DNA from: Ectocarpus siliculosus
Lineage: Eukaryota; Sar; Phaeophyceae; Ectocarpales; Ectocarpaceae
Direction of reading: 5' to 3'
Length of the DNA stretch: 43,516 nt
NCBI GenBank assembly: GCA_000310025.1
Contig: FN648622.1
Location: 18,858 to 62,373 of the forward strand
Part shown: piece by piece, positions 266 to 43,463 of the stretch
Layout: each line of letters starts with the position of its first letter
Position numbering within the stretch: the stretch's first letter is position 1
Made by a program: the position numbers and the translations under genes
Notes under the pieces: model-generated
The model's database searches: none
What the model was told of the DNA's origin: nothing
The model's input: the letters and a program-made list of their open reading frames with translations, nothing else

Positions 266-1937
266 AAGAGGAGGAGGCGCGGAAGGAGAGAGAGCAGCAG
301 GAGATGCGGCTTGCGGCGTTGGCGGTGCTGGAGGAGTCTTCTGAGGACAACGTGAGAGGGCCGGAGGGAGATAGAGATACAGAGACAAGAGACAGGCAGA
401 GAGGCAGACTTAGGCAAAGGCTCACGGAGAGACAGACACAGAGACAGAGACATGGCAGGCAGAGACCCGTAGACAAAAACTGCCGAAGGCACGCCGCCGT
501 ACCGCCTACCACATCTCCACTTGCTCCAACTTTTGACGCCACCGGACGACTGTGTGTGTGTGTGTGTGTTTGTTTTGCTGCTGTTGCTCTAAGCTGCTCC
601 AACTCTCTGACGCCACCGGGCGACTGACTGGCTGTTCTTTTGCTGCTGTTGATCCTCTGCTTTTCCGACTTTTTTACGCCACCGACGACTGCCTGTTTCG
701 TTGCTCCTCTGCTGAACGAACGGGACGTGGACTGTAGGAGGAACCGGCTAACAACGCTAACGGTGTGGTGGACGCGAACGAGTCGGGAGAAGAGACAGAG
801 TCGGACGGCCCCGAGGCTACGGCTGCCCGGCGTGGCGATGATGGCGGCTCTGATGCGGTGAGTGAGGGAGAAGTGAGGCCGGTAGGGGAGCCGCTGCCGC
901 TGTTGTAGCGAACCTCTCCTCCGCGTTCTCCTGCTGGTGGTTCGTGTGTTCCCTCGCCATTCTCGGTGGCGGTTTTTCCGCCGAGTTTTTGTTGTGGACG
1001 GGTGTTGCTGTCGCGGAACGGCAACAAGGAATCCCCGGCGGCAGCTGTTCCTTTTCGTTCACGTTCGTCGGCATCTCCCTCTCTACCTTCCTCTCTTTTT
1101 ACATGTTGCGTGACAAGGGCTTTGTTTCCGGCCCCACTGCTGTCAGGATATATGACACTTCCCCCCCTGCTCTGGAGGTTGTTGTTGCTGCTGTGTTGTT
1201 GTTTTCGGTATTGTTTTGTTGTCGTCGGCGTGTACACATTGATTGTTGAACTTGCTGTCGCTGTTGGTGGTGGTGGTGGTGCGATAATCAAAACAATATC
1301 TCTTTCCAGCCAGTTCTTCCTCTTCCGTTCTGTCAAGTCTTTTCGAGACGCGAAGAAATGAGTCTCCTTGGTCACAAGCCAATAGTTTAGTCATTCATAA
1401 GAGAAGAGAGGCACAAGGAAAGGGGAAATCCCGCCGCTTGCGAAACACACCTACAGCAAAACAACACAACAAATGTGGTTTACAAAATCACCGAAAGGAA
1501 GCGGAGACCACCCCTCTAACCCCAGATCCCAAGTGAAAAACGCTGACTCGCGATTTCTGTAGCGCTATAGCTTTTGCACTATGTCCATTCCATCAGCTGG
1601 TACGCAAGACTGATTATCTTATCCTCCTTACGGGTGTGTCGTGTGTTTTGTGCTACCGTACCCCACAGGAGGCGGACGGGACCGAAGAGGAGGAGGAGGA
1701 GGATATTTGCCTCGTCTGCTGCGAGGTGCGCGATCCGGACAGGATCCTCCGGTGCTCCAATTGCTCCGGGGGGGGCAGCGGAATGGGGATATACCACAAC
1801 GAGTGCCTCCCGAAGCCCCTGGAATCCATGCCCGCCGAGGGCGAGGTGAGCGCTTCGCGTATGATTCGGTGGCGTTTTCATCATTGGTATGTTGTCGTTT
1901 GCTTGTTTTTGTTGTTGTCGTTGTCGTTGTCGTTGTG

Positions 1938-1969
<32 letters not shown>

Positions 1970-3215
1970 GGTGCTTCATTATGGTTGTTCCCCATTTTGT
2001 GACGATGCGAAAAAGCTGAGAAGGAGTCATCGTGCGTCATCGTGGTTTATCCCGATCGGCAATCTGTTACTCAGAAGTACCTCTTTCGTCTCTCGGGGGT
2101 TGGCTACTGAAGATTCAATCCTTATGAGCAACATGTCTTTGACACCCCCCCCTCTCCGTGCCCTCCCCTTCTCTTCACCGTGTACTCGTCTCAAAAGCCT
2201 CTTTAGCCATCCGTACTTGGCAGCTGGTTGTGCGTTTCGCTTTATTTTATCGTCGGCTTTTTGGTGCCTGAATCACATCACGGCAATCTCCCACATCTCT
2301 TGTCGCACCCCTGTCATTCAAGTCTTCTTCCGAGCTCGGAAGAAGACAACGACGCTACTATGGCACCGTTTGTTTGTGCCTTCAATTGCTCGGAACTGTC
2401 TCGCGAGGTCTCTCCTAACCTACCCCCCCCGCCCTCCCGTTGCTCCCCACGAAACGGTATACTCAGTGGGTGTGCCCCCGCTGTGTCACCAAGAAACGAA
2501 AACATGGGGGTCCCGGCGCGGGAGGCTCCAAGTCCACAGCGGTCAAGAACAAGGGCGGCGGCAAGGAAGGTGGAAGCAAGAAGACCGCAGCAGCAGCAGC
2601 AGCAGCAGCAGCATCAAGAAAGAGGAAGGTTCCCTCTCGAGAGGATGCTGGTGGCGGTGGCGGTGGCGCGGACCGGGGCGGGGAAGAGGGGGGCGGGGCG
2701 AAGAAACCAAGGCGAGCGTGGTCGTCAAGTATGGAGGCCCTGCTCGCCACCGCGGTCAAGAAGGTGAAGTATAGCCGCCGCCTCCGGCGCCATTCCTTGT
2801 TAGCAAGGCCAAACGTTGACAAGAACAGAGAACACGCTCGAGGAAAACATGAACGTACATACGTACATACATGCCTCCAAATTATTTTTGGAGAGCTTCT
2901 TTTGCTCTTCGTGTGCTGCCTCTTCATTCTGTTATCGCGATACAATCTCTTGTTGTTTTTTGAAGAAAAAGCTCCTTTTCTTTTGCGCCATGTTCAACAA
3001 ATATAATGTCCTTGCTTGTAAGAGAAACACGTTTTATTTTTGTGCCATGTTCAACGCTTTCCTTCGTCGCGGCGTTTTTTGTTTTTTTTCGTAAGCAGAT
3101 GGGCGCTGGCAAGTGGAAGGAGATGGAGGAGGATCCCGAGTTCGACTTCGAGGGCATGCCGGCAAACGCTCTCAGGCAAAAATGGAGGACTCTCTCGCAG
3201 AAGCGGCGCAGCTGA
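91..3215 (+). CDS. PHD-finger / Myb (telobox-like) chromatin protein, 5' end missing
   Basis: Probable nuclear chromatin reader and DNA-binding protein. Visible exons are 91-351, 738-857, 1669-1845, 2467-2763 and 3099-3215 (stop TGA 3213-3215), all phase 0, giving 323 residues. The first exon opens with the end of a PHD finger (WLCPKC); its earlier zinc ligands must lie upstream of the window. Exon 3 gives a second PHD (ICLVCC, then CSNC, then YHNEC), completed by WVCPRC at the start of exon 4. In both fingers the intron falls exactly before the W-x-C-P-x-C codons, which points to internal duplication. Basic, Ala-rich linkers follow, encoded by GCA and GCAGCA repeats. The C-terminus (exons 4-5) reads as one Myb/SANT domain: helix MEALLATAVKK, then GAGKWKEM, then ALRQKWRTL. 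The last motif resembles the telobox KDKWRNL (family knowledge). A telomere role is inference only. Confidence 0.82.
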
Positions 3216-11903: not shown

Positions 11904-14900
11904 TCAGAACTTCTCCATGGGCAAAAACACCTCGGCATCCTGCGTTCCGATCTCCGTCACCTCTAGCCGGCGGAGACTGCCGTCTAGGACATCGAACACC
12001 CTGTCCGCCTGATACCGCCTGCTCCCAGCGGTCCAATCTACGGAGAACACGCCCCCTTGCCCCTCCTCCACCCGCAGGGGGAACCTGCCGAACCGAGCCA
12101 AATCGTGCGACAACACGGGGAACACCGAGAAACGTTCAGGCACTTGTACTCGAGGGATAAACAATCGGTGTTAGCGCTCCAGGAACGTCTTCTGATTGGG
12201 TGTGTGTGTGTCCATGTGGGACACTTTGGATGGCAAGCGGAGCGACAAAAACGGTTCGGTTCCGGGCGAGTTCGACCGGCATCGTGTCATGCGTGTGCAT
12301 GTCATCGTCTACTGCATCTGTGAGAGTGTCCTCATGGACGGCCTATCATCCCCCGGCTATGCTATGAGAACTGCGAAGACAAGGGGCAACCGCCCTTGTT
12401 TCCCCTGCCTTTTTGCTCCTCGCAAGGGTTCGGGGAGCCGTTCTTGCTAGTAGAACACCTCACCGTTATTGAAAACGCAGGTTTTGATCACGCTAGACAT
12501 TCAAACATCGTTTGCCACGTCACAACTTTCCGGGCGGAGACTATATCAGCTTTGAGGTACTACTACATCATGTCATGCTTCCGGCCGTCCAATTCCAAAG
12601 AGATCAAACCAACCAACCCCCCGATCCCCGATCGCCCGCCGCCTTTTCATGAAGGGAAACCTGGGTGACTGCAAGAACAACCATCCGCGAGAAAAAAGCA
12701 CGGTCGGAAGGAAGTACATCGCTCTCCTCGCGGTCGTCCTAACAGGTGCATGTTGGCGGTAATGTCAACGCGGCGGCACACGGCGGCTGTATCGTAACTC
12801 CACAAATCCCCCCCCCGCGCCCTACCTTTGGCAAAGTAGGAAAGGACACGTGGTCAATGGTCTAACCGCTAAGGCATGAAAAACATGAGCTCGACCCTCC
12901 TCCCGCTCCGCATCGAAACATCCATCATCCGACTGTTGAATCATAGCCTGCAAGACGGTCGGTTGTCAAAATACCCCTTTTTCCCCGTGAGGTAACGCAC
13001 CTCATGGTAAGCCCGCCCTCCGCGTAGATGGAAAAGTACAGGGGGCTCCGTGAGAGCGAGGGAGGGTCGTACAACCCCTTGCCCGCGGAGCCGTACAGCT
13101 CCGGCTAGAGATGGGGGGAAGCGGGAGAGGCGCGAGACGGCGACTGTTACAATCAGGACGGCGCTTTCTAGGGGGGGGCGGGAGAAGAGTAGTCATAGCG
13201 GGAAATAAAAACTGCAAAGGGGTCGGCGTGGCGTCCCGTAGCGGTTTGGAGGGATAAGGTGAAGGGTGAGAGGATGATCGGGTGTTCGGGGTTTGGGGCA
13301 CCCACAGAGTGCTCGGCACTTGGTGGCCAAAAACACACACACACACACACACACGAGCGCACTCGATGATTATTATTGAAACCGGCTCGTGAAAGCGAAA
13401 TTGATCACTTTGTACTGTACTGCTGTTTTGGTGCGCAAGAGATGAAGAACGGATTGATCGATTCGTCCAACGACCAAAGGCAAAGCACGCAGCAGAGCAC
13501 CATACACAGACAAGCCTCCCCCGGAAGCACCCTCACACATCCGCATAATACACACCCCACGACGAAACACGACCCCCCCCCCCCCCCCTNNNNNNNNNNN
13601 NNNNNNNNNNNNNNNNNNNNNNNNNNNNNNNNNNNNNNNNNNNNNNNNNNNNNNNNNNNNNNNNNNNNNNNNNNNNNNNNNNNNNNNNNCCCCCCCCCCC
13701 CCCCCCCCCCGCTCGGTGTTTGCCATTGGGGTTGGGCTTTCGTCGCGTGGCAACGACGTTGTAAAACAAGCTGCCCCCCCCGGTGTTTGCCATCGGGGTT
13801 GGGTTTTCGTCGCTTGGCAGCGATGTTGTAAAACAAGCCGATCACTTCGTGAGCTCGACAACCAGGTTACCGGTTTTTTTTTGCCTCTGTTTTTTTTTTG
13901 CGGTAACCGTGAATGGTAGTCGAGCAGATCATGTTGTGCGGGGTCGATATCCCTCACTCCGCGCGAAGGGGGTAATCGCACCACGTTGTGTTAAAATAGT
14001 CAAGCATCCTCGAGGCAGTTACACAGTGCTTATGACTGTCTCTGGAAGTGAAAGCACCAGAAAGTAAATTAAGTCATACGCAGCTGTCATCCGTGCGCAA
14101 GGAAGTAAGCACAAGATGCCGAACACCCTTAGCAGGATGCAGCGCACCCTTCATGCGACTCGCCGAATACCTCATGGCGCTTCGTGCTAGGTGATGTGAG
14201 AGTCTGGTCCGGTGCGAACCCGGCGTACTCCGTCCCGGCCTTGTAGCGATGCGAGGTCAATGGTCTAACGACTACGGCATGCACGACTATGGTCAATGGT
14301 CAAATGACTAAGGCAAGCAACAAATATGTACGCCCCCCCCCCCCCATGCGACTCGCCGAATACCTCACGGCGCTTCACGCTTGGTGATGTGAGAGGCTGG
14401 TCCGGTGAGAACCCGGCGTGCTCCGTCCCGGCTTTGTAGGGATGCGAGGACAATGGTCTAACGACTACGGCATGCACGACTATGAGTGCACCCCCCGCCC
14501 CCCGCCCCAATCCCCCCCTATAGGGGATCACACTGTTGAACACAGTAGGAAAAGTGTTCTGTAAGCTGCTCAACGATAGACGGTGAAGTCGACAAGTTCA
14601 AATGTGAAAGCAGACCCGAGTACGAAGACCGGGTTCACGTAGTTGCGGAATGTCCGTTGTACAAGAAGGAGAGGGAAGTGTTATGACTGAGCTGGGGAGA
14701 GTACAAGGAAGATACAGGGAGATGTTTGAGGCATGGAATAGCCAGGAGAAGACAGTATCTGTACTAGGACATAGGAAGTGGGTTGAAAAGCGGGAAGTGA
14801 TATCGATAGGATATATAGGCTAACGACTACGCCATGCACGTCTATGAGTACCCCCTCCCCCTCCAAATTCCATTGTTCTGCCTTCGATCCCCCTCTCTTG

Positions 14901-23531: not shown

Positions 23532-26500
23532 ATGGGTGCAGCAGGCTCAGTGGGCACCAGCTCCACAGCCCCTCGCAAGAGCACCCATAGCTCCGGCAAA
23601 TATGCAGCAGTCGATGGCGAGGTTCAGTCAGCGGAGCAATTCGAAACTAGCGCGAAGGTGTTGGTGTCGAAGTACCATGATCTTCGCCTTAGCAGCAGTG
23701 GTGGAGGCGGAGGCGCTGCTGGTTCTGCACCTTTGTTGGACAACGGTATGGTATCGTTGGCGCCCATGCCATCCCGGTCGTCGTCTCCCCCCCACCCGAA
23801 AGTACGCAATACGAGGCTGTCCGTCCAAAGGCGGCTAGATGGCGTGGCTGAGTCGAAAATTGATGATGAGGTGTGCGTTACGACAGCACCCCCCACCTCT
23901 GGACGGTGAGAGGCTGTTCTGAAACCGGGCATGCTTGTGGAAGTAGCATTGGTTCAGAGGTGGAGTCCCGCCCCGAGGGTATTTCGGGAATGTGCAAGTG
24001 CTCTCGATAGGCCCATATTGCTGTAGCATATTCTATACAAGTAGTAGGGAATGATGTGTCGTTTGGTTTGCTCAGGTTCTGCACTTGTACACGAAAAGCT
24101 TCGTCCAGGTGTCCTTTTGCATCCACGTGTGGTAAAGCAAGGAGATACGCCAAGCTCGCAGAAAGATCTATGGTATCGTTGCAGTAGTATTTTGCGGCGG
24201 GCCGTTCAGCGAGAGCAAAACGCGAACACGGCAAGGCAGGTACGACTGCTGCTGTCGAATTCACGACTCCTCGCAGCCAAATTCATGCCAGTGTGTACAT
24301 ACATCCGAAATGCCAGCGGCCGTTGAATGCCATTAAATTCGATGACGGTTTACCTCACGCGCAGTCAGAATGGAGGCCAGGGCATTAGTGCGAATACCCG
24401 CACGGGGCTGTCTCCGGGGATCGGCAATGTGGCCAACGCCAACAACGGGAATGTGGTAGAGCGTGGAGCTCGAGCGGGGTCATCTTTAGATCACTTCGTT
24501 CATCGCGATGACATGATCGGGTTAGCTCGAGACCTTGGGTAAGCATAAAGCTTGACACGGGTGTCACTCGGCCAGCGAGACCCAGACAAATCATGGAAAT
24601 TTTTTGTATCTATGTTGTGAAAGAGTTCGGCTGCAAAGCTTAAATCGTGCAGCCGGCGCCCTCCATCTATTGTGAACGGCTGCGGCCGAGCGCTCGTCGT
24701 TGCTACAAGTACAGCCGAAGCTCCACCTCCGACTTGACGCCGGGTCTTTCGCTAGACCATATCAATTGCTCGCTCGTCCCAAGAAAGGCGCTCGCTTTTC
24801 CTCTGCCTTGGGTAATTTCCCGCCGTCATATTCACCAAAACACTGCTATTCACGATGGTGTCAAATCAAGGTATGATATCACCCCGGAACAGGCGACGGC
24901 AATGTTCGACATGCTAGACTCTGAACGCCAGGGCAGGGTTTTAGAAAGCGATCTCTTCAAACACTTTCTTCCCCTCCTGGAGAAGACGGGCCTTTCTGGT
25001 CCACCGAGGAAAGAGTCAACGGGGCGGAGGAAGTCGTCAGTGAAAGGGGTAAGGAATTGTGACGCTCTGATCATTGGCCGTCCGATATTGTGAAATGTAA
25101 TGGGATACGTTGTTTTCTTCGCGGATATTGAATTTTCTCTTTGATTGCGGTGCCATCGTTCAAGTTTTAGAAGGACTGGGGCGAAACCCTGCCTGTATTC
25201 CCGAATGCTACATGTGTTCGAAAGCGGACGTCATGGCTGTGTTGCCGGTCTTACCCGGTACAAAACGCAGATGGAGTCAGGCCACACGATCTCAAAGGAC
25301 TGTGCACAGCAAGCTCGTTCTTTGGTTCTGTTGTAGCGATGTTGGCACAATTTTCCTCTCTTTCGGACATATTTTTGGCGCGGTTGTAGTAGTAGACTTA
25401 AGACACTTAATTTGAACCAAACAGAACCGCCCGCCGAGGTAAGAATGGCGAAATATTGTTGTAGATATACATACGTTATCCATGGTTCAACTACCAGGGC
25501 GAGCAACAAATGCGAACGACCCTACCATATTCCCCACGTCCTCGCATACGCCCAACCACTTGCTCCTGTTCAGTCGGTGCCCAGACGCCCACGTCCTAGT
25601 GCCCCTCGTCCATCAGGGCCGAAAACACCACCGCGACCAGCGGGAACCCCTCCCGCAACCGCGAAAAGACGGATTACTTCTCCCACCCCCGGAGGAGGGC
25701 TAAGGGAAACATTCTCCGCCGCTCCTACTACCGTGAATCAGACTTCATCCTCGCCCTCGAATGGCTCCCCACAGGGGCCAAAAAGGAATTCTGCCGCAAG
25801 TGCCGATGGCTTGAATCGAACGTTATCTCCAGGATACCTTCGAGAACGGCCTTCCAAATTCTGGGTCACTCCGGAGCACGGCGGGGGCGGCGATCCTCCT
25901 GCTTCTGGTCCATTCGCTCCCCTCCAAGACCGGGTGGATCCGGTAGAGAGCCGGACTGCTTCTGGTCCGCTCCCTCCTCTCGAAGACCGAGTGGCACCGA
26001 TAGAGCTCGGCGTGGAACGCAACAATGAAACGAAGAACGTGAGCGGTACAAAGGGAACCAGCCACCACCAGACCGAAAGTGAGCAAGGAAAAGAAGCAAC
26101 AGTCACCACCGGTAGGGCGGAAAATGGCACGAACCGGCAGGCAGAGGAGCAAGCCGGAGGTACATCAGGAGCGGCGACCGAGGAGGCTAAAGAAGCTGTC
26201 GCCTCTGGAGATTCAGATGCTGAACCAGCGGTAGATCCGTTGGCCGGCAAAGACGTTCTAGAGTGGACGGCGGCTGACGTGCGGACGTGGATCCGGGCGC
26301 TGCCCCGAGGTTTGGCGACTTTCGCGGAGGCGGAAGCCTTTGCGAAGGGTCGAGTGGATGGGAAGAAGCTTGCGACCCTGACGCTTTCGGACATCAAGCG
26401 CAAAGAGTTTCGTCACGCCAAGTTCAAGGCTAAGGTAGGTGCTGATTGGTCCGTCCGGCTGGCTGATCTCCCCCCGTGTGCCGGTGGTACGCTGCGTAGT

Positions 26501-29042
26501 GCCCGGGTGGGATCACCAAGTCGTCCCACAAGCGCAGCGCGTGGGGCACAAACAAAAGTATAGCCAGAAATGGCAAGCCGACGTAGTTTCTCCGATGCCG
26601 ACATCGGGGTTGATCCGACAGCAGTTCTCCGTTTATCACCGGCTCCGTTTGCTCGGTCCTTACGTTGTTCCGGGTCTCTACGTCCATTCTCAGATACCCA
26701 CGGCACTGTGGGTCGAGATCAAACGGATTCAGCAGACCGTACCTACCCCCGTCACGGCGGTGACGGTGGCGGCGGTAGCGGCCACCACCGCAGCGGCGCT
26801 GCCTTCACGTTTTTCACCGGGGCAAACAATCGTGGACGAGGCCGTCAACACACCCCTTTGCACTGTGAAGCAGTCCGTCGGCCAGGGGGCCTTTGGGGAG
26901 GTTTATCAGGTCGTTTGGACGGGGATCGGGTCAGACAGGGGTTCGACCCTGGCCATGAAGACTGTGCGCCTGGCGGATATAAGCTCGGATGAGCGAGACG
27001 AGTACCGAGTTCTTCTCGTGGAGGAGATCCTGGCGGTGAGGACAATGAACCCCGTCGCCTTTTCTCCATAGCTTTACGGGGGGAAAAAGATTAGGTTTTC
27101 AAGTGGTCGAGAAATCCCCCTTGCAGAGCTTTGCTCTCGGCGTATAATATTTCGAGTGAAAGTGGTTTGTTCACGAACGTGAGGAGTCAGGCTATATTAA
27201 TGGTGCCTCAGTCGTATGAGACGCACAATCCCGTGGTTGACAGAAGATTTTTATGCGACTGCTCGGCTTTCGATTGAGCTCGGCTCGACCCTGTGCACCC
27301 TGCTACTCGTGGCCTCACGTGTGTCGTCTGCTGGCGTTTACCACACGGCTTGCAGGCGGTGCGCGTGAAGCCCCACCCAAACGTCGTTAACGTACGGTTT
27401 GCGCACATCATGGGGTTCTGCAGCGAAAACGAGGAATACTTCTGCTTTGAGGACTTCGTGACCGGCAAGAGCCTCGAGGAACTTGTCGCAGAGGGCGAGG
27501 GAGAGCTGTACGATGGAACCCCGGCCGAGGTGACCCGACGTCGCACTTTTGACGCCAATAGAACTCTCAATGACGCCGTGTCACTCCTCCCTTTTGAACT
27601 GATTCTGCAATAGTCGCCAACGGTAATCCTGATTGAGCGGAACTTCGCATCCGTGCTGTTCTACAACGGGGAGAGCCCGAAATCAACAACTGTATGTTGT
27701 AAATTGCATAGAAGTATGAACGACATCATCTCCGCACGCTTGCCATGGAGGTATTTTCTGATTTTCGAATCCTTCATACTTGTGTCGAAACAATCCTAAA
27801 CATGGAAGTTGACGAGGGAAGAGCCAACCGGTTCAGAGTGAGGTAGTCTGCGCAGCGCTGCATGAAGTTGAGAGATGCCTAAACCTTCTTGATACATACC
27901 AGTTCGCTCTCTCGTAAGAGTCCCTGAATTTCGATTGTTCGGTTCCCCCCACGTGCGACACGTTGACTTTTCGGGATGCATGGATGACTCGTTTTTACTA
28001 TTTATGATGCAGATCCAGGGGCGCCTACTGAGCTATTCCATCCAGCTCGCGCGCGGGCTCGGCCATATTCATCGCTCCGGCGTTCTGCACCAGGTGACGA
28101 ATTCTCGCTTCTTCCGCACTGTTAGTCACCACTCGGGCGAAGGGAACACACCAGATTTATCTCACCACTCTCCGGAGGCCATCATCCCCCGAGGCAAGAA
28201 TCGATCGCCACACCGTTGAGAAGTCGTTTTCCTTAATCGTACAATTTTTTCCTGAGAGAACCGAAAGCGCGCAGCCCTGCCCGTTTTCCTTACACCCACA
28301 TCCATTTTTCGTCTAGGATATTAAATCAGCGAACATTATGGTGAGCAACGACGCGGGACTACTCATCACAGACTTCGGCTTCGCCACCGTGGGGCAGTTC
28401 GGCCCACCACCGCAACTGCCGGCTGAAAAGTCGACCGCGGTTCCCGCCATCGCCTCCACCGCTGCTGGGGTAGAACCAGTGGGAGAAGGTTTGGAAAAAG
28501 GATGTGGTTGCGGCAAATCTTCCCCTTCAGGAAACCCTCAAAGTGGTGTCGACACGGGAAGTGGCAACGAGCCTGAGGTACCATCCGGGTGGATCCCCGG
28601 CTACAGCGAGTCCGGAGGACCCCATACCTCAGCCAGTGGAAACAGGTGCTGCGGCAGCATGGAACGGGACATGAGTGCAGCCGAAGGCAGACAGGAGGCT
28701 AGGACGGCCGCGGGTGGTTCTGCCGAGCAAGCCCAGGTACAGCATTCCTGCCCCGTAGTAGGGACAGGGGCGGGGCCACCCGTGATCACAAAAGTGAGCC
28801 CAGCAACGGCTGCAGCCGAGCCAGCAGGTAGGCGATCCCCGCTAGCGGGGAACGGTGGCGGCCCCGGCGGTGCTGGGAAAGAAATCATGGACGGAAGCGG
28901 GGGGGGGTCGGGGCTTTTGCAACAAAATGGCGATGGCGGAAGGCCGCCGAATCGAGACAGCGTTCTCTTAGGTACCCTCAAAGGGTACACACCAAGATAC
29001 CAGTCCCCGGAAGTTAGCGCAATCATGAAAAAGAAAGATGAA

Positions 29043-29081
<39 letters not shown>

Positions 29082-32000
29082 GTGCAAGAAGGCGGCCGAT
29101 CGATGAAAATCGGAGCCCAACAGGTCGGTGTATGGTTTTGTGAAACGCAAGGCATGATCGCTTCTCCGCAATAGGATTGCAGTTCAGTAGGAAGGCCTCT
29201 CGTGTGCCCGTTGGGTCCCACAGTGCCCGTCCCACTCCGAGCCGAGTCGACACACGTGAGGGACACGCTCAGCCAGGACTCCGTTGTCGTCCGCTCGAAC
29301 CTGGTCCTATGCATTCAAGACAGCATCAATCGAATAGCAAAGTTCCCTTGGTGTTCCAGCACGATCTGCCGAGCAGGCAGTCCCAACACACCATCCAACC
29401 CGCACTGAACGAACCCTGTTGCTTGCACCCTCCTCCTTTCTCCATCTTCGTCCGTCCTAACTCCCATCCTTACCCCACCTTCAGCACCCACCCGCATCAC
29501 GGTCGGAGAAGAATCACGACACGGTCGACGCGTGGCGTTCCCAATTTTCCCACCGGAGCGACATGTGGGCGGCAGGGGTCGTAGTGCTCGAGATGTACGC
29601 GGGCGGTCTGGGGAACCTGCCGGCAGGCCAGGGCGAAAATGCCCTCGAACTACTTGAAACCCTGGTTCGCAATACCGTCGGGCACGACGGTGGGCGTAGA
29701 AACTGTGCAAGCGCAGACGGAGAAGATAAGACCAAGAAAGGGCGAGACACGTTTCTGGTGGATATGCCGGAGGGGGTGCTCGCGGTTTTGCGGGAAGTTT
29801 TCCAGCGAACGGCTGGAAACCGACCGTTTTCAATGGAGGTGGGGTTTTTGTCGGGGTTGCGGCTTTGACTTACGGGCGATAGTTCAGGCACCCGCTTGTA
29901 GACGCCAGGTTTGGGTGTGAGAAAAATTGCCAGGGGCAATTTCGTGGCAAACGCGTGCTAGATGCAGACATTTTTGCTACTATGACTGAGAGCGCTACTC
30001 TTCGGCCTGGAGTTCTGAAAGCCTTTCTGACCAAATACAACATGTCCGCCGCACCACAAGCGCATTAACAACGGAGAAGAGGGAGTGTCTTGCCAGTTGG
30101 TGGCCTACGTGCTCTGTGTCCTCGTCTTGGTAACGTTGAGATTGACAAAGACATCATCAAGATTCTCCAACTCGTTCCCGACGCGCTTGCCCTACTGCTA
30201 TGCCGTGTCACGTTTTTCTCTCTGCCCTTGCCGCCCAGGCGTTGGCGGCACGCCTTTCTGAAACCCTTGGCGGCATGCTGGAGAAAAAGCTCGCCGTTGT
30301 TCCGTGCCCTTCGGCCGGGGCCCCCTCGTCTTCCTCGCTGTGCGAACAGGCGCCGGTCTACGTCGAGTGTGACGAGAATCACGCCAAGGTGAGGCTAAGA
30401 GGATGACTCGGAGTCAACCCGCATCCCAAGAGCTCCAAACATATCCCATGTTTTGAGCGTCATCAACACTGCCCACGAACGTGGTCACGAACAGTATGTT
30501 ATCCTTGGCCGGCATAGACAAAGGGTTGGTTTGTTGCTGCCTTGGTGTGTTGTTGGGCCAATGTCACGAAATGACGGGAGGCCTGTATCTCGTTTGCTTT
30601 CTTGCGCTCGGCTGGAGGCGTAGCGCGGTGTTGGCTCGGTGCACGTTCGCCAGGGTATAGGTATACTTCCTGGAGAACTGACGCAAGAAGGGACACCAAT
30701 TCCACACGTCATTCAGCTTGACGGTATGCGAAGTTCCCTGGTTTCACGCCCATCTAGGGTCAGATGATGGCACAGAAACAAACCAAAGCCCCACCATTTT
30801 TTGCGGCACGGGCGTTTCCTAAGGCCACATGCACAACAAATGGAAAGAGGCACGCAACGTTAAGAAAGCACCACGATTCCTCAACAACATCACGAAGAAA
30901 ATCAATGCGTGCTGCTCTCACCCGAGAACGCGTGACAGTAACCGCGCAAATGCGAGCACGTGCGTTGCTGCTTGTGTCGCGAGGTACGAGCAAACCATCT
31001 CTCATGTTTGCCTGCCGTGGAGAAGTAGCCCATGACAACGCGCCTCCTTTTGCTCCACAACGAACCTCGCGTGGGCAGGTGGGGCGCCTGCATATGTGGC
31101 TTGGGAAAGCCCTCTTCTTGAAGGGCGACGACCGGCGCGAGCAGGCTCTGCAGGAGTACCGGGAGGGCGTGAGGGTACTGCTAGAGAGCGAAGCCGAACG
31201 ACGGTCACCGAGCATGGCTCTCTTCCGTTGGTACCTGGGTAAAGCTCTGCTGGAGAATGGCGAGGTAAAAGCTGTATACAGTACCAGGTGTTCTGCTGCA
31301 AGAACGGGTGGGTGAAAGCAGACCACCAAATCATCGCATGGCTCAAGGCACTCGAAACCATGGTCGACATGAAGGCCGACACAGCTAGTCCTCTGAAATC
31401 TGACATGTTTTTCGCTTGCGCCCCTATCGATCCTTCCGTTGGACCGATATCGCTCCGCCCGCTCGCTCGCCGCACTACCCCTGGCCTTTGTAGATCGACG
31501 AGGCCCTGCCCCACCTCGCAGAGTCGGTTTCGATAGACCCAGAAAATGCCAAGTACCGCCACACCCTCGGCCTGGCCAAGTGCGTCACGGGTGACGAGGC
31601 CGGAGCACGGGAGGATCTCCTCGAGGCAGCGCTACTGGACGAGGAGGACGCAGAAGATCGGTACCAGCTCCGCATGCACCGCATCGACGAGAAGCGGAGA
31701 AAAAGCGCAGAGGAGGAACAGCAGCGCGTTTCACGGTCATTGCAAGAGTCTGAGGGGGCTGGCACGCCGCAGGTTTGACATGTCCCCGCAGTTCTAGCGC
31801 TAGTAGAGTGCGGTGTGCGCCCAAAATATTGGACTGATCGGCTTGAGACTGGTGAGGAACGGTTCTTGCACTAGGTTTGTAAATCATGTCGACCCACGGG
31901 AAAGAGGACATTCCGATTAGTTCATATTTCGCTGAAGGTGTTTAATCGATCACTCCGGTGGGGAGCATTCTTACTTCGCGCTCTTCGTTGTTTCCTTCGA

Positions 32001-35000
32001 AAGCAGTCCCCGTCTGTTCACGTCGCTGCGTTTCACCACCTGTTTTTGTTTCCCCAGGGAGCGGCGTCCCCCAAGCCAGGCGATGCAGAGGAAAGCGGTA
32101 CGCCCCTGGCGGCGACGACACCAAGTGATGAGCCTACCGCCGCAATGTCCGGCTTTGCTCAATCGCGCCTCCTGGCGCTTGAGAGGGCCTCTTCCTCGAC
32201 TCGCACCTATGCCCTCGAGAACCTCAGCGACTACCGGAACCATAAATTGGCGGGCAAACTGATCGGCGACACTTGGGGAAGTGGCGGGGGGGTGGCTCAC
32301 CCCATCGATTACTCTTTTGGGGATAAGAACACCCGAGATGCGGCGACTCTTGCCGAGGTGGGTGGCCCGGCTGCGATCGGGAATCGTGCCCCAAGCTAAT
32401 GTCCCGAGATTGACGACAAACGAGATAGTGCTGTCTCGCCGTGTATTGCTGTATTGACGCGTTTGAGGCTAACACCACCTCTACGTAACTCCTCGCCGTA
32501 GATCGGTAGAACGGGCGGTGGCGCACGGACTGTGGGATTCCTCATCTCTTGACTTTCCCTATGTCTGCAACATCCCCCGTTGTTGCAGGTCCGGCGGTTC
32601 TCTGTCGGAGACGAAATTGTCGGGGGGCCAGACATCTCCGCTTCTGGAAAACCGCTAGAACCACTACACTGTTGCGGCTTCTCTTCTCCGTACGATGACA
32701 CGCGTGTTGACACGGAAGTCGACGGAAGGTTTGTTATCTGCGGTCTCTTGTCCCCAGGACAGGCTAGCCTGCATATTCCGGGAGAAGCGTACACGGCGAC
32801 GAGGTCGACGACGAACCGTTGTCGGCAACAGCCAGACGAGTGCAGCAGGTCTTACCACGTAGTCCACGTTCGGTTCGAGACCGGTAACACTACGCAGGCT
32901 GCTAGTCCTATGTCTGCGACCCCCTCAGTGGCAGAAGCCATAACGGGGGAAATTGGTGACAATCACCTTGGAACGATTGACGAAAGACAGGGCAAGGTTC
33001 GCAGGGCCGGCACCGAGGCGACGGTAGGCCCGGGGGCGGGGTGTTCTTCCGGTGTCACCGGCGGCAACAAGACCGGCAGGTCTTTGTCGTCGTCGCGAAG
33101 CATATCGCCAACGAATCGTCTCGCTCTTCTGAGCTCAACCCGCTGCAAGCGAGAGGAGGAGTACGTCCCAATGCTGAAGGCGACGGGGCGGGCGGCGATG
33201 GTGGGTTTCCACGCGCAGCTGGCGGGAGCGGTGCGGCAGCTGAGGTGGGAGGCTTGCGACCTCACGCTTATCGCCGATGACCTTCCCGGTGCGTGCTTGA
33301 CGCTACGAGAGGCGTGCACGTCCGGCAGTCTGTACCGGGGAACCGGGATAGGGACTAGCAGCAGCAGCAGCCGCGGTCACCACGCGACAAGGGACGATCA
33401 GCGAGTGAACGCGCCGGTGGTGGTGGACAGAATCTTGAAGCTTGCGAAGCAAATGGCCGCAGCGATTCTGCACTGCCACCGCAAAGGGGTGAGCGGGCGT
33501 GAAGTTTGCACTGCATCTAGTAGTGGGCATTGTTCCATGGTTGAGCAGGCGTTATCTGTGGCATACAGCCAGTGGATTTGGATTTGGTCGCGGCACGAGC
33601 TGATCCTACGATGTAAAAGCGCGGGTTGCACGGGATGTTTCTGCGCACAACCAAAACCTAAACTGACGTCGCATGAAGGCACAGAAACCGCACTGGTTCT
33701 CAAAACAAAGACCCGGAAGGGCGCGAGTGCGGAAGGCATGTGTAGAACCAAATCTACACGCGGCTGAAGTCGGTGGGAGGCCTGTCGGAGCAGGCGGGTA
33801 AATACTGCTACGACGATGAACGTTCAATGGCGACTACCGTATACACCCCCTGGACCGATTTTCAAAGCTCGATTACTCCACGACGAAGAGGATGCATAAA
33901 GCTCTCGACCAGACGACTTCAAGGCCGCCGTTCTCGGCGCCCCGGCTCTTCCTGCTGATGATAAAATCGAGCTTTGAAAATTGGTACAGGAGGTGTGTTA
34001 TCGTGTGTCGTATACGGCATGTTTTGACACAGCACCCTCAACAAAGTAGTGTTTAATGGCGAACAGATTGTGGTTCCACGATCAGAAGGATTGAGACGGC
34101 GGGAGAAAAAGGCGGCGCCGTCGCTGTTTCTCTCCCTGTTCTCAACGGGCCTTTGTTCTTCGTCCCATCTTCATTGCCATCGGAAACACGTGTCCGTTGC
34201 ACGTGTGTAAAACAGGTTCTTCTGCGAACTACCACCCCTGACAACGTGCTCGTGACACCTGAGTGGGACGCTATTCTCCGCCCGAACTACTCTCACGCGT
34301 ATGAGGCGCAGAGGTGGACAACCGTTTCCGTTCGCGCTCAGCAACAACAACGGCAGGCCCCCACGCGGTCCGGTGCTAACCTGGATAAACTGCTTGCCGC
34401 TCCATTCACAAACGCCACATCTTTGGACTATCAGGCGAGTAGTCTGAGCAAGCAAGCACTAATAGCGCCATTCCCGAAGGATAGCATGGAACGTGAGGAT
34501 ACAAAATCACGGCGGGAAAAACACTGAGTAACTGCCATGCGGCGACGTCGTTTTGAGCTGGCGTCCGACGTAATGACCTCCGAAGCGTGATCTGGGTGGT
34601 GTGCAGTATGCAGAATCTCGCGAGACCGGGTGAAGGCAATCAATTGACCGGCAAGCGACGGGCGGAAGCGCAAGGGTATCAGTTGCCGCCGATCGTTAAG
34701 ACACGGGTGACGTCATTGTAGTTTCCGACAGAAAACCTTCGCAGGCTTCGCGATGTTCTCCCCCTGTTTCCAAATACTGCCTCATATGCTGTTAACCTTT
34801 GCGCCGCATCCCCTCCATCTCGGGCGAGCGCATTGTTGTCATGAGGTTCCCTCTACACCCAGCGTCCCTTACCGATTTATCGCTGTCGCTCGTTTGCAAC
34901 CACCGTGTAAACGGCGGACACATATCTTCTATGCGCGTGGCGACAACAATAATTTTCGTGCTTCTTGTCCTTGCTGGTTGCACAATCACTGCCGTTCGAA

Positions 35001-38000
35001 GCCTCGTTCCCGTACACCGCAGCCTGATCTAAAAAAAATGCGTGCTTGTCTTCCCAGAGCCCGGAAATAGCGCAAATGCGGAGCGAGAACGAACCCCGTC
35101 AGAGGGTTTCAGGTCGAGCGCAACGGCGTTCGGCGGCGTTGACGGGCACAGGTGTTCAAGAAGAACGACCGCGTTCGATGTCTTCCCCAACCCGCAGCCA
35201 CCCCAGCATAAGCCCCGAGCATGCCACTACAAGGGGGCGCGCACAGAGCCGAACTGACTACTACGTCGCGGGTGGTGCTGCGCACTCAGCAACTGCTGAC
35301 AAGGATCAGCAACAAACGGACGCCAGTAAGCGGGGAAGGACGGGGAGGCGTAGTCTCGGTCGCCGGCAAGGAGGGGCTGCCGCAGACGACACCGGCGAGG
35401 ACGCACAACCCTCGTCCCCCTCCTCGGTGTCGAGAGGTACCGGTGCGGCCGCGGGCGGTGGACAGCCGATGATCACGGCTTGCGAGAGCGACATCTGGGC
35501 GTGGGCGTTGATGGTCCTGCAGATGTTCTCCGACGACGTGTGGCCCCCCGGTAGCGGCCAGGTGTGGGTGGATGTCTCTGCGTTAACAAATATCGTGGCT
35601 CGCCCGTACGTTTGGATGGCCGAACAGGACCGAACAGCCGGCAACTGTTGCACAACGAGTGCTTCCGATAGGCTTAGCCTGAAGCCTACCCGTAGCTGGC
35701 ATGAACAGTGCGACACATCTCTTGCGTTTCATCATTGCACTTTTCTGAGCAGCAATCTGGCAGGCCGGAGGAAATGAAAACGGCTAAAACTCTCAGGTAT
35801 GACGTTGATAGTCAAGAACGCCACAGGTTCCCAGGCGCTGGATCAATGTACGGCAGACATTGCAGGGTTTAGAGTACTTGCTGAACGACACATTCAAGCG
35901 CTTTCTCGTTTTCGAGATTCCAGTAATCCCTGTCATCCTTTCCGTGTCTTGCTACAGAAAGGGCTGCCGGCCTTAGAGGCTTTGCTGCTTAGGAGGCAAG
36001 GCGTGGACTCTTGGACTACGGAAGACGTTATCTCATGGCTCCGCGATATTGGGCTGTGGAGCGAGAAAACCGAGAGAGAGGCAAGCTGCGTCATGCCGTA
36101 CCCCCTTGGCCGTCAATAACCAAAGCCAACAAAGTTCGCGCGTGTGCTTGTTCGGCCTGTGCGTTCTACTTTTAGGCGCCGGGAAAGATGGAAGACACGA
36201 TACCGTGGCACTGATCCCGAGATCGATGCTCTAAACTTTGGTTGTCTCACCAGTTAAAAGAAGAAATAGTGGAGGTACTTTTCGTATTTCGTGGTAGAAA
36301 CATGCAACTCAATCGAGCGGGAGGTGCCAACCGTTCACGCCGTCTCTCCCAATCTCTCGGCCTCGCCTCCGGCACGATGTTCACATGTTGCTTCTTGACC
36401 AGATTGTCGGCAGACTGCTCTATCAATTGATCTTTTATCGGATCGTGTGCGTCTTCAGACTGCTGTAAGTTTTCGACGTTTTCACGTATCGAGAACTTCA
36501 ATAAAAATCGGCTGCTGACGCGCAGATTCGCGCTTTCAAGATAGATGGGCCGCACATGCTGGTGCCCACGTGCCGTCGAGATATTGTCGAGAAACTAGGG
36601 CTTTTCATCACCGATGGAGAGCTGTCCTGCAAGCTCTGGGACAGCATTGCCGGGGGGCTGCAGCGGTGGAGCATGCCGTTCTCTCTGGCGCAGGTTTTAC
36701 GGAGGTGAGTGTGAGACGAGTGAAGTACCAACGGTCCGGGATACGAGCTGAAAAGAGGGAAACGGAAACCCCGAAAGCTTCTGATTCAAGTTTCGGCAGT
36801 GCATCACAGGAAGGAAGAACTGATCCTTAGCATCCGTCCGAGGACCATGGGAATCTTAATTTGCCGCCACAAAACGTATACTTGCGACGCATGAAGGGGG
36901 GGGGGGGGTAATGTGGATGACGCGTATATTGGAAGCGTAGGATCCACACCTTCAACACTTGTAGGCGCGGCGCGCCGATGACAGGTGCCTGGCTGACAGC
37001 CCGAAGGACCGGTATTCAAGCATGGAAGAAGTTTGTAGGCTTCTCCGCGGGATCGCGGCAGGCGATGGTGGACGCGATGATGAGGCTTCCGCGGTATCAG
37101 CGGCGAGCGACTACAGCTGTGACGAAAATGTTGCATCCGACAGAGTGCGCACGGGCATGATTCTCAACGACATCGGGGTGAGTTTGGGGCTACGAGACCT
37201 GCAAGGTTAGAGGGTGGCGAGGGCGGGCGTTTAAACGGCATTGAAGCACCTTCGGCAAGTGAAGAACGCCGGAGAGGATGGAAAGGGGGGATGGAGAGGG
37301 GGGTTGTGTCACAGTAGCACGCTAGACTACGGACCTCGTTGGGTTATGAGATGGCCGGCGTATCACAGGATCCAAAGCGCTTGGGCGTACCTAACAATGT
37401 GAACGATACAGGATAAGCGGATCGGCGCACAATGCGCTTCACTCTGCGCACAGGTCAACATGCCCCCTCCCGACCCCCCGATTCGCCACACGATAACCTC
37501 TGGAAACAAACTCCTTCCCTGTTGTTTTATTAGGTGTGCCTGAGCAGCAAAGGCGAGACCGAGGAATCGGAGCGGTACTACAAGATGGCCCTGCTTTCGA
37601 GCGAAGATGTCTTCGAGGCGTACTACAACCTCGGCCTGCTATATAGCACAGCGGCGTTTAACAAGTGAGAGCTGGTGTGTACGCCCCTTACGTCCTCCGC
37701 ATACATAGGAAGGCCCACTAGTCGTCGATCATCACAGCAAGAGCCATAGCAGAGACTGCAGAACATTTCGCCAATCCACATGGCATCGTTCGTCGCTCTT
37801 GAGAGCGTTTCGAAGTCTGGAAACGCTTCCGGTGACACGTACAGGGCGTCTGCGATAGTTATTCTCTGTGTGCTGGGATTCGCGCATATTCCGGCGTGCT
37901 GAGCGAGGTCGCTTGTTTGGTGCGGGGACGGCGCCAACACAAACAACAATAGCCTAAACGAAACAGCTACACTTTGCAACCCACAAGTGAACACCACTTG

Positions 38001-39068
38001 GGTGTAAGCCCGTGACTCTACGAGATTCGTGCCCAACCAGGTTCCGAGAGGCCCAGCAAATGTTTGACGCGGCCACGGAAAGAATGAGTCCCCGCGACCC
38101 GCGCCGCAAGTCCAGCATCGAGCATTCTAAGGCAGCCGCACGCAAGTCCAACTACCACCAATCCCAGGAGGTGGGGCGACATATTTTTGTGTGTTCATGT
38201 GCCCTGACGATGTCACCCGAACGGTACGCGCGCATGCTGATTGGCTCTGTCGTGTGGCGCCACTCGATACCGTGATAAGAAATGCTTGACGGGATATAAA
38301 ACTGAGAGTGTCTTCGACTCTCCGCACACTCTTGCGATCCGTCATTGTGCAATCATACACACTATCTGATGTTGCTATATATCTCTCTCTGTCGACGGAC
38401 GTCTATGGACACTCGTTAACAGGTCCCTGGACGTGCCCATGGACACTCAATCAGGCGACTCTGCGAGAGTATTCACGCGGCCTGTTTTCAAGCACGTGAT
38501 TTAGTTGTCCGATGTACGCCAACGCAACCCAATTCTTTGAATAACGACCTGATCAACCGCTGTCGGCGGAAAAGTTGCAACGTTCGTAGTTCGTTTTTCA
38601 AGTTTGGAAACCACCGCCAGGCCAACCAAAATGCCGGCCTTGCACGAGTGGGTATCGAATTCGCACCCTGTCAAGTCACGAACTAAACCCCCTTTTGTCT
38701 GTCCCTCACTTTTTTCACCCAACCAGATAATGAAAGCTCTCTCCGGGAAGTACAATTGCGTTTCGCCAAACAGTTCCAGGGATAGAGGAGGGTCGGTGGC
38801 CGCACCAACAGGTGGGGCGGCCAGGAGCAGTCACCATGGCGGTGGAAGGGGAGCAATGAGCGAGGGCGCCGACGGCGACAACCGTCGAGCATCTTTCCCC
38901 CCCGAGCAGAAGCACGCGGGCTCGACCTCCGTCAAATCGTTGGGTAGGTCGAGGGCCTCTTCTGCGACGTCCGATGCGTCTGGGACGACGGGAGTTACGC
39001 AGACCCCGCCGTCTTTGCGATCACCACCCCGCATGCGAAGCCCAACCCCATCTAGAGGATCAGGTTAA
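23532..39068 (+). CDS. giant SAM-kinase-TPR-pseudokinase-TPR protein, 23 exons
   Basis: Exons: 23532-23905, 24365-24538, 24871-25048, 25574-26434, 26694-27035, 27356-27529, 28013-28093, 28317-29123, 29485-29838, 30239-30388, 31079-31264, 31494-31772, 32058-32357, 32589-33488, 34216-34434, 35058-35561, 35835-35873, 35958-36080, 36526-36704, 36985-37177, 37534-37664, 38041-38170, 38727-39068. They sum to 7,020 nt (2,339 aa) with every phase matching. Domains: MGAAGS start (possible N-myristoylation); EF-hand-like segment near residues 190-225; SAM about 466-529; kinase 1 with GQGAFGEV (592-599), Lys618, HQD (727-729), Asn734, DFG (747-749) and SPE (958-960), so likely active; TPRs 1166-1320; pseudokinase about 1600-2100 (HRD replaced by LRT at 1723-1725, DFG by PNY at 1743-1745) with a SAM at about 1975-2055 in its C-lobe; TPRs 2130-2226; Ser/Pro-rich tail. 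Likely a signalling scaffold; substrate unknown. Two introns start with GC. Confidence 0.85.
29044..29080 (+). repeat. coding (GCG)n trinucleotide repeat
   Basis: A run of GCG codons in exon 8 of the kinase gene encodes poly-Ala directly after KKKDE, in an insert between the SPE motif and the SDMW motif of kinase 1. Its length is likely to vary between strains. Confidence 0.85.
33844..33995. mobile_element. 152-bp MITE in a kinase-gene intron
   Basis: Inverted ends of 31 bp, 28 matching. The left end reads CACCCCCTGGACCGATTTTC and continues AAAGCTCGATT; the right end, reversed, reads CACCTCCTGTACCAATTTTC and continues AAAGCTCGATT. TA precedes the left end, but TG follows the right end, so a target duplication is imperfect or lost. 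It has no coding capacity. It lies in the intron between exons 14 and 15. Its sequence is unrelated to the MITE at 3509 although its size is nearly equal. Confidence 0.7.
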
Positions 39069-41129: not shown

Positions 41130-42716
41130 TCAGTGTATAACAATCATCCAACTGATGAAGGTGTAGAAGAAGAACACTGGGTACACGGCCAACATCTTGC
41201 GCTCGTCTGAGATGATCTCCGAGATGAACACCTTCGACGCTGTCATTGGGAGCAAGGTAACGAACAGAGACCCGCAACAGAAACGCAAAACAAGGAGGTA
41301 TGTCATGTCGTTGGTCAATGGCTTAAGGGGCAGGAGAAGTAGAGGGGGGAGTAGCAAAAGGAACTCGGCAAGAAAAAAAGAGTCGGAGAAACACAACAGT
41401 TGCAGGGAGGCAAGACCAAACATAAAAACCTCACGAACTCCCCGCTGTGGGGTCGGGGCGGGGCGCAGAAAACAGAACAAAGCATGCCCTTGTGCGACAA
41501 AAGAGCATGACACAAGCGACCAACACAGGATGGCCAACAGAAATGACACATGATAGCGTGTGGGGCATTGCAACCATGTCTGAGATGAACTCCAGCGATC
41601 TCTTTTAGATCCTGTGCTGCCTTCGTAAGAAGAGAGGGGCGGGGGATGGGCTGGCAGGCAACACACACTTTGTGATTTGAAATAACGGGGTTATGATTAT
41701 GGCACAGAACAAAATGATAATCGAAATCCCGAAGAAAGACACGGCTGTCTCGAGTACGCGCAGAAGAAAGTGGGGTGGAAGAGGGTAAAAAACATAATAA
41801 GGCGTTCTGTGTGTCGATTTGAGCTCTTCGGCTGAGAGAAAATCATACCATGGACACGTCGTGTTTGATTGTTGGCAGTCGTCGCCCCTGAACTGTTAGG
41901 CAAGTCAGCTAGAGAGATCAAGACAAAGTCGCCTTGCAGACTCTCCACCGCGAGTACCCAAGGGAACGCTTTCGGAACGTCAGATGGATGGTGTTTACCG
42001 TAAAACCACGGACAACGGAAAAGACGAACGTGTTACTGCCAGGAAATGAAGGGGGTAGCAGTGGAATGAACCCATGTGCGTCTTCGAGCACGTGTCATGG
42101 GGATATCCATTCCACAAAAAACGAGTCAAGAACACAGAACACGAGCGCCTTCAAAGGTGCTACACGGTGTTGCCCCTCCACAAAGCAGTCACCGGTGTGT
42201 GATCGTCCCACATCCGCACGCACTACCTCTGGAGCATCCCGCGTCATGCGCGCGGCCAATCAACAAGTGAAGATAGGCTGGCACTTCGGTTCCCCAGACA
42301 ACGCGAGCTTACCAGCAAGCAACCACCCCAAGGGGCCACGCAAAATACCACCACAACCCCCCCCCCTCCTCCGATCAGACAGGGCGCATGCTCAGCGGTC
42401 GGCCCGGGAGCGCGATCGACGCCAACTGAATCAACACACGGAGTACACACACACACAGCAGGCAAGCAAGACTCGCGGCAGTACTCGGTGCCCACATGTC
42501 TGTTAACTATTTCGCGCACATGCGCTGAGAGAAGATGGACACATCGTGTAGGGCGCATGCATACCTCGGGTTGCCCAGACGAAGCCTACCAGCACAACGG
42601 CCACACGCACGAAGACGTTCATAAAATTGAAGAGGCTCAGGATGAGGCAGACCACCGCCGACACCAGCAGCGGGAACACGCAGTAACCCAGCACGCACAC
42701 GCTCTGGAAGAAGGAG
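41130..42716 (-). CDS. YIPF6: YIPF6-type Yip1-domain Golgi membrane protein, 3' exons only
   Basis: Two exons in transcript order: 42716-42565 (phase 2 in, phase 1 out) and 41239-41130 (TGA at 41132-41130). The joined protein reads FFQSVCVLGYCVFPLLVSAV, then NVFVRVAVVLVGFVWATRAS, then ISDERKMLAVYPVFFFYTFI and SWMIVIH. The signatures SFFQ-VCVLGYCV-PL, FVWATRAS and LAVYPVFxFYxxISWMI are those of YIPF6, a multispanning Yip1-family protein of the Golgi/ER-Golgi membranes that binds Rab machinery (family knowledge). Three or four membrane segments are visible here. The N-terminal cytosolic part and first membrane segments must lie on exons beyond 43516. The last intron is 1,325 bp (41240-42564). 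Confidence 0.9.
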
Positions 42717-42749: not shown

Positions 42750-43463
42750 GGGGGGGGTGTACTCATAGTCGTGCATGCCGTAGTCGTTTGACCATTGACC
42801 TCGCATCCCTACAAAGCCGGGACGGAGCACGCCGGGTTCTCACCGGACCAGGCTCTCACATCACCAAGCGCGAAGCGCCGTGAGGTATTTGGCGAGTCGC
42901 ATGAAGGGTGAGCTGCATCCTGCTAAGGGTGTTCGGCATCTTGTGCTTACTTCCTTGCGTACGGATGACAGCTACGTATGACTTAATTTATTTTCTGGTG
43001 CTTTCACTTCCAGAGATAGTTGTAAGCACTGTGTAACTGCCTCGAGGAAGCTTGACCATTTTAACACAACGTGGTGCGATCATCCCCCGTTGCGCGGAGT
43101 GAGGTTTCTCGACCCCGCACAACATGATCTACTCGACCACCATTATGGTTACCGCCAAAAAAAAAACCAGAGGTAAAAAAAAAAGACGGTAACCTGGTTG
43201 CCGAGTTCACGAAGTGAATTGGCTTGTTTTACAACGTCGTTGCCAATCGACGAAAACCCAATCCCGATGGCAAACACCGAGTGGGGGGCTTGTTTTACAA
43301 CGTCGTTGCCAAGCGACGAAAACTCAAACCCCGATGGCAAACACCGGGGGGGGCGGCTTGTTTTACAACGTCGTTGCCAAGCGACGAAAACCCAACCCCG
43401 ATGGCAAACACCGAGGGGGGCGGGACGGGGCGGGGCGGGAACGGGGGGGGGGGGGGGGGGGGG
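42750..43463 (-). mobile_element. non-autonomous C-tailed retroelement, most complete copy
   Basis: Read on the minus strand: a C tract (43463 down to 43443), three minisatellite units, a body of about 430 bp matching 13845-14290, the tail GACTACGGCATGCACGACTA followed by TGAGTACA, and a C tract ending near 42750. It lies in an intron of YIPF6, in the same orientation as that gene, and stops about 35 bp before the acceptor of the exon at 42716. Length is about 714 bp. I see no terminal inverted repeat and no coding frame. Confidence 0.8.
43223..43424 (-). repeat. minisatellite, three units of 66-68 bp
   Basis: Units start at 43223, 43289 and 43357. Each contains CTTGTTTTACAACGTCGTTG, then CGACGAAAACCCAA, then CCCGATGGCAAACACCG, and is separated from the next by a short G-rich spacer of varying length. 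At least two inverted units of the same sequence stand at 13712-13840 beside the assembly gap. Confidence 0.92.

Follow-up and report, generated by a model that had tools for sequence, protein, structure and literature searches.

A probable single-gene kinase-pseudokinase protein with SAM and TPR domains in the brown alga Ectocarpus siliculosus

JAKs and plant tandem kinase proteins carry a kinase and a pseudokinase in one chain, the pseudokinase of JAKs lying ahead of the kinase, and we know of no SAM-TPR arrangement in either group. The protein described here, in which the kinase comes first, is encoded in a 43,516-nucleotide stretch of the Ectocarpus siliculosus genome (contig FN648622.1 of assembly GCA_000310025.1, positions 18,858 to 62,373; hereafter the window), where positions 23532-39068 probably represent a large single gene for a kinase-pseudokinase protein. 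Plant brassinosteroid signalling kinases (BSKs, RLCK-XII) have a lipid-tethered N terminus followed by a kinase and then by a TPR region that is thought to be inhibitory (PMC10317173), and the stramenopile Phytophthora infestans has a TKL kinase, PITG_16204, with eight C-terminal TPRs (PMC3019232). Among apicomplexan proteins, PfTKL3 requires its SAM domain for activity (PMC3227725), and PfpTKL is a SAM-containing pseudokinase proposed to be a scaffold (PMC6544628).

As far as the cited excerpts describe these proteins, the Ectocarpus protein resembles plant BSKs in the order of kinase and TPR, with a tethered N terminus suggested here by a motif alone; unlike the single-kinase BSKs, it has a second kinase-like unit, and the lineage differs. 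To our knowledge, BSKs have neither a second, pseudokinase-TPR half nor a SAM domain. PITG_16204 is likewise a stramenopile kinase with C-terminal TPRs, but it has eight of them, and the excerpt mentions neither a second kinase domain nor a SAM domain (PMC3019232). PfTKL3 and PfpTKL share the presence of SAM together with a kinase or pseudokinase, but their SAM domain is described as separate rather than inside the kinase, and the corresponding excerpts mention neither a kinase-pseudokinase pair nor TPRs. The pairings kinase-TPR, SAM-kinase and kinase-pseudokinase are each known already, whereas the whole combination is unusual: among the literature matches listed, we recognized no description of it, in line with a preliminary description of the locus, which knew of no named family with this architecture.

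We lean, with modest confidence, towards a reading in which the product of a single brown-algal gene is a scaffold kinase, about 247 kDa in mass, with the order SAM-kinase-TPR-pseudokinase (with an inserted SAM)-TPR, the pseudokinase being descended from the active-type kinase (kinase 1), which would be regulated in cis. All features of the gene lie on the + strand and are given in window positions.

23532..39068, + strand: whole coding region, 22-23 exons, 2,326-2,333 residues (from exon phases and codon log-odds)
38727..39068, + strand: exon 23, with the stop and a low-complexity tail rich in Ser, Arg and Pro (from sequence)

From the ATG at 23532 to the TAA at 39068, 23 exons join in phase into 7,002 nt that encode 2,333 residues with zero internal stops; the domain order is an MGAAGS start, a weak EF-hand, SAM, a non-RD kinase, TPRs, the pseudokinase and TPRs. 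The preliminary description had given 2,339 residues (2,340 codons) and a '2.3-kDa-scale' label; we did not arrive at exactly that model, and the label is a slip, the calculated mass being 247 kDa. Its 23 phase-compatible exons do join into an open reading frame, but the start of exon 20 had to be moved and exon 18 is doubtful (see below). Exon 20 now starts at 36985, giving a junction that reads QVLRR followed by CLADSPKDRYSSMEEV. We rejected a start at 36965: after exon 19, which ends at 36704, it takes the downstream reading out of frame. Worked out by hand, that start would be in phase if intron 19 began earlier, after 36693, but the donor there looks poorer and VLRR would be lost.

The model frame is stop-free and has the top leave-one-out codon log-odds in 22 of the 23 exons, exon 7 (81 nt) being the only one whose best score falls outside it. 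Codon scores are negative in all three frames for 19/22 introns, and introns 19, 20 and 21 each score weakly positive in one or two frames (maximum +0.10 bits per codon); since the background was drawn from the very introns scored, this negativity is partly built in. The intron boundaries comprise 20 GT-AG and 2 GC-AG pairs (introns 15 and 17).

The first half of the protein contains the following kinase and TPR features.

26859..30274, + strand: kinase 1 (exons 5-10), with every catalytic residue and a non-RD loop, HQD (from Pkinase profile and motif positions)
28401..28967, + strand: low-complexity insert, about 190 residues long, within the kinase 1 activation loop (from sequence)
31079..31655, + strand: first TPR set, about three repeats (by eye), exons 11-12 (from TPR_2 profile)

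Judged by its sequence, kinase 1 is certain to be a protein kinase with a full set of catalytic residues. It matches the Pkinase profile with 98 bits (E 8e-28), passing the curated cut-off of 31.7, and the Gly-loop, Lys, catalytic Asp, Asn, DFG and SPE reported in the preliminary description could all be located (Gly-loop 591-600, K618, D729, N734, D747, E960). Its catalytic loop reads HQD, and kinase 1 is therefore of the non-RD type. In the PDB, it matches 739 distinct sequences at E 1e-6; because the best 60 of these are a mixture of TK, RSK, NEK, PAK and other kinases, we assign it to no kinase group. A run of GCG triplets at window positions 29043-29079 encodes a poly-Ala stretch within exon 8.

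TPRs had been reported after both kinase units, and TPR profiles indeed rise above their curated cut-offs at both sites when the pieces are scanned: the first set reaches 33.0 bits with TPR_2 (cut-off 27) and the second set 30.5 bits with TPR_12 (cut-off 30.1). In the scan of the whole protein, TPR_1 scored 30.6 bits against a cut-off of 27.8, and TPR_12 dropped to 27.6 bits.

The second half of the protein comprises a further kinase-like unit with its own TPRs.

32589..37054, + strand: pseudokinase, exons 14-20 (from Pkinase profile and segment match to kinase 1)
35487..35561, + strand: pseudokinase alphaF and following stretch, exon 16 (SDIWAWALMVLQMF...), matching SDMWAAGVVVLEMY of kinase 1
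36673..37054, + strand: pseudokinase alphaH-alphaI, exons 19-20 (weak Pkinase match; segment D, see below)
37139..38089, + strand: second TPR set, about two repeats (by eye), exons 20-22 (from TPR_12 profile)

Thr1725 stands at the site of the catalytic Asp and Pro1743 at that of the DFG Asp, both as previously proposed, whereas N1730, SPE, D1938 (alphaF) and R2078 (alphaI) are kept. Because both Asp residues are replaced, the second unit is a probable pseudokinase, provided that the alignment and the kinase fold are right. Such a fold is supported by profile and structure-database matches. Pkinase is the top Pfam match of the untrimmed and trimmed pieces alike, with 14.4 bits (E 0.025) for the untrimmed 678 residues, 27.9 bits (E 1.9e-6) after removal of the inserts and SAM along boundaries of our own choice, and 15.9 and 11.8 bits for two part-pieces. 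In the PDB, a trimmed piece matches Aurora kinase B best (E 5.8e-4), and the best 60 of its 218 matches at E<=10 are all named kinases. A structure predicted for exon 14 alone was unusable (mean predicted local distance difference test score 34.4). Counting against a kinase fold, no form of the unit reaches the Pkinase cut-off of 31.7. Thus, where the preliminary description had staked its second kinase on a kinase profile match in exons 14-20, a match is present but sub-threshold.

The likeness between the two units was compared in local alignments of five segments, drawn after both sequences were known. The z-scores were 10.9 for the catalytic loop (A), 5.6 for YQSPE (B), 11.4 for alphaF-G (C), 4.1 for alphaH-I (D) and 1.6 for the N-lobe (N). 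Segments A, B and C each exceeded 500/500 shuffles and D 499/500. These scores, together with multiple kinase landmarks in the correct order and the top rank of Pkinase among the Pfam matches, make it very improbable that exons 14-20 encode a SAM protein without a kinase fold whose kinase resemblance arose by chance, although the low untrimmed score (14.4 bits, E 0.025) and the sub-cut-off score of every form would suit that explanation.

The similarity also bears on where the pseudokinase came from. Its summed A-D score is 191 with kinase 1 and at most 161 in 50 control kinase loci; as 14 of the 50 overlap others, leaving 36 distinct loci, kinase 1 gives the highest sum among 37. Scores at least as high as that of kinase 1 were found in 2/36 distinct controls for segment A, 1/36 for B, 0/36 for C, 20/36 for D and 36/36 for N (3/50, 1/50, 0/50, 27/50 and 50/50, respectively, over all loci). 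This comparison is conservative because six frames of whole loci offer the controls a larger search space. Moreover, the two units have in common the YQSPE motif and an insert site between APE and alphaF: the stretch from YQSPE to SD.W...G/A spans 73 residues in kinase 1 and 152 in the pseudokinase, compared to 22-23 in 7 distinct control frames. Two longer control spacings were set aside: one of 76 residues, which occurred in two loci that overlap and probably reflects an unspliced intron, and one of 158, probably spurious.

We therefore consider it likely, based on the C-lobe, that the pseudokinase arose by an old internal duplication of kinase 1. Several results pull the other way. The N-lobe segment shows no similarity between the units. 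Segment D is matched at least as well by 20 of the distinct controls and segment A by two, and the best match for D, though in register, scores 47 against 48 for the top of 60 shuffles. Finally, when the genome was searched with the pseudokinase, nothing but the exons of the pseudokinase itself appeared at E<=0.1, and kinase 1 was absent; the likeness between the two units thus lies below the reach of that search. The same N-lobe, segment and search results would also suit one gene that had gained its second kinase by fusion from a different kinase. We regard this origin as unlikely, as both the sum and alphaF-G fit best with kinase 1, with no control equalling it in segment C, and the insert site and YQSPE are common to both kinase units. 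Of the duplication and pseudokinase claims in the preliminary description, the former thus stands for the C-lobe (z of about 11 for A and C) but not for the N-lobe, and the latter stands for the missing catalytic Asps but lacks a Pkinase score above the cut-off.

The two halves are connected through exon 13.

32058..32357, + strand: exon 13, linker between the two halves (open, coding score 27.4 bits)

We are fairly confident from the sequence that both halves belong to one gene. Nevertheless, intron 12 (285 bp) has a weak-looking donor, GTTTGA, with read-through running into an immediate in-frame stop, and exon 13 contains an in-frame ATG at 32145; donor and acceptor strength were judged by eye, without a splice score. 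Because read-through stops at once, a first gene could end at intron 12, and the locus would then consist of two adjacent genes born of tandem duplication, one for SAM, kinase and TPRs that stops in exon 12 or beyond it, and one for the pseudokinase and its TPRs that begins in exon 13. Such a duplication would account for the kinase similarity too. However, the 29 codons of exon 13 upstream of the ATG contain no stop and look coding, with 13.5 bits where the other two frames score 4.6 and 7.5, and the acceptor of the exon is, by eye, pyrimidine-rich. Furthermore, Ectocarpus is reported to have a median intron of 531, a median intergenic distance of 2,529 and a mean 3' untranslated region of 845 nt (PMC6337836). 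By these figures, the 285 bp between exons 12 and 13 are intron-sized and short for a 3' untranslated region, a promoter and a 5' untranslated region, making a gene boundary there unlikely. We accordingly give the two-gene arrangement a low probability and retain the single gene.

Four features were added to those in the preliminary description: the non-RD loop and the large activation-loop insert of kinase 1, a myristoylation-like start, and a SAM domain inside the pseudokinase. The last two, with neighbouring features, are as follows.

23532..23549, + strand: start MGAAGS, N-myristoylation-like (from sequence motif)
24872..24988, + strand: EF-hand-like stretch with degenerate loop, exon 3 (EF-hand_7 18.1 bits, cut-off 30)
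26255..26741, + strand: SAM domain 1, running from the end of exon 4 into exon 5 (from SAM_1 profile and PDB matches)
36000..36660, + strand: SAM domain 2, encoded by exons 17 and 19 and lying between pseudokinase alphaG and alphaH (from SAM_2 profile and PDB matches)
36254..36274, + strand: exon 18, doubtful, 21 nt (lowers the score of the surrounding SAM)

The N-myristoylation consensus calls for Gly2 followed, at position 6, by a small residue, and the N terminus of the protein is, by this motif, myristoylation-like. SAM domain 1 scores 22.3 bits with SAM_1 in the whole protein and 19.8 as a piece (cut-off 23) and has 10 weak PDB matches (best E 0.026), 9 of which we take to be SAM proteins. 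SAM domain 2 has 4 PDB matches at E<=10 (best E 0.0012), presumably all SAM proteins; the matches of the two domains include liprin, SHANK2, SARM1/tir-1, aveugle and others. Inclusion of exon 18 lowers SAM domain 2 from 19.5 to 17.2 bits with SAM_2 (cut-off 20.5) and from 15.8 to 14.3 bits with SAM_1. We therefore doubt that exon 18 is coding; it may be non-coding, in which case the model has 22 exons and 2,326 residues. With SAM domain 2 excised, its flanks align as one stretch, weakly (E 0.15), to Pkinase positions 177-256, and the domain appears to be nested in the C-lobe of the pseudokinase. It weighs against the proposed architecture that both SAM domains and the EF-hand are all below their Pfam cut-offs. 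The profile search suggested in the preliminary description thus placed kinase 1 and the TPRs above threshold, and the SAM domains and the second kinase below it. Taken together, the earlier observation is confirmed with corrections, and the earlier interpretation, a single gene for an active-type kinase and a pseudokinase that are each followed by TPRs, is partly supported.

The E. siliculosus assembly (189.5 Mb, 492 contigs) contains at least 150 matches to the EsV-1-7 motif PF19114 (150 of 880 candidates scored), whereas 14 control genomes have none; this motif family is expanded in brown algae, and the matches fit an alga of the Ectocarpus kind. The assembly was also searched for further copies of the gene. 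Protein searches with the N-terminal part, SAM domain 1, kinase 1, the kinase 1 C-lobe plus first TPRs, and the trimmed pseudokinase plus SAM domain 2 revealed no close second copy, although weak matches can escape such searches. The next kinase found with kinase 1 has an E-value of 8.7e-6. Among IMG/VR sequences searched with kinase 1, 7 stretches fit a pattern and 0 were confirmed. A possible SAM-kinase gene lies on another contig (C1) of this genome at 1232316-1234543 (- strand), where a SAM match and a kinase match share the strand and are separated by about 2 kb.

Around the gene, none of six neighbouring frames has a Pfam match at E 0.01. One of them, at window 41130-41690 (- strand), is membrane-protein-like and would be convergent with the kinase gene; by eye it looks YIPF-like, which Pfam does not support at that threshold. 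Another, at 1537-2019 (+ strand), has a Cys-rich stretch that by eye looks PHD-finger-like. A 67-bp tandem repeat occurs at 13707-13838 and 43221-43423; its 33-base core (<=3 mismatches) has 2,963 occurrences on both strands of the genome, compared to 0 for the reversed control, and many of the listed occurrences lie within short arrays.

In the proposed mechanism, the N terminus, as its motif suggests, would tether the protein to the membrane, the SAM domains would gather copies of the protein or partners, kinase 1 would act as a non-RD Ser/Thr kinase, the TPRs would dock substrates, and the pseudokinase-TPR half would restrain or free kinase 1 in cis. In JAKs the pseudokinase restrains the kinase, and in plant BSKs the TPR region is proposed to do so; cis restraint in the Ectocarpus protein would be comparable. 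More tentatively, and with less confidence than for the reading favoured above, the protein may be a self-contained kinase-pseudokinase switch, in which a kinase-TPR module was duplicated, the dead copy gained a SAM domain in its C-lobe between alphaG and alphaH, and SAM assembly reshapes the pseudokinase and so switches the active kinase. As no close second copy was found, the gene is open to knock-out testing.

In brown algae, whose signalling proteins have received little study, complex bodies arose separately from those of plants and animals. If the proposal is true, nesting a SAM domain in a pseudokinase lobe would be structurally uncommon, and a kinase that came under the control of its own dead copy without shared origin with JAKs or plant tandem kinases would show how readily such switches arise.

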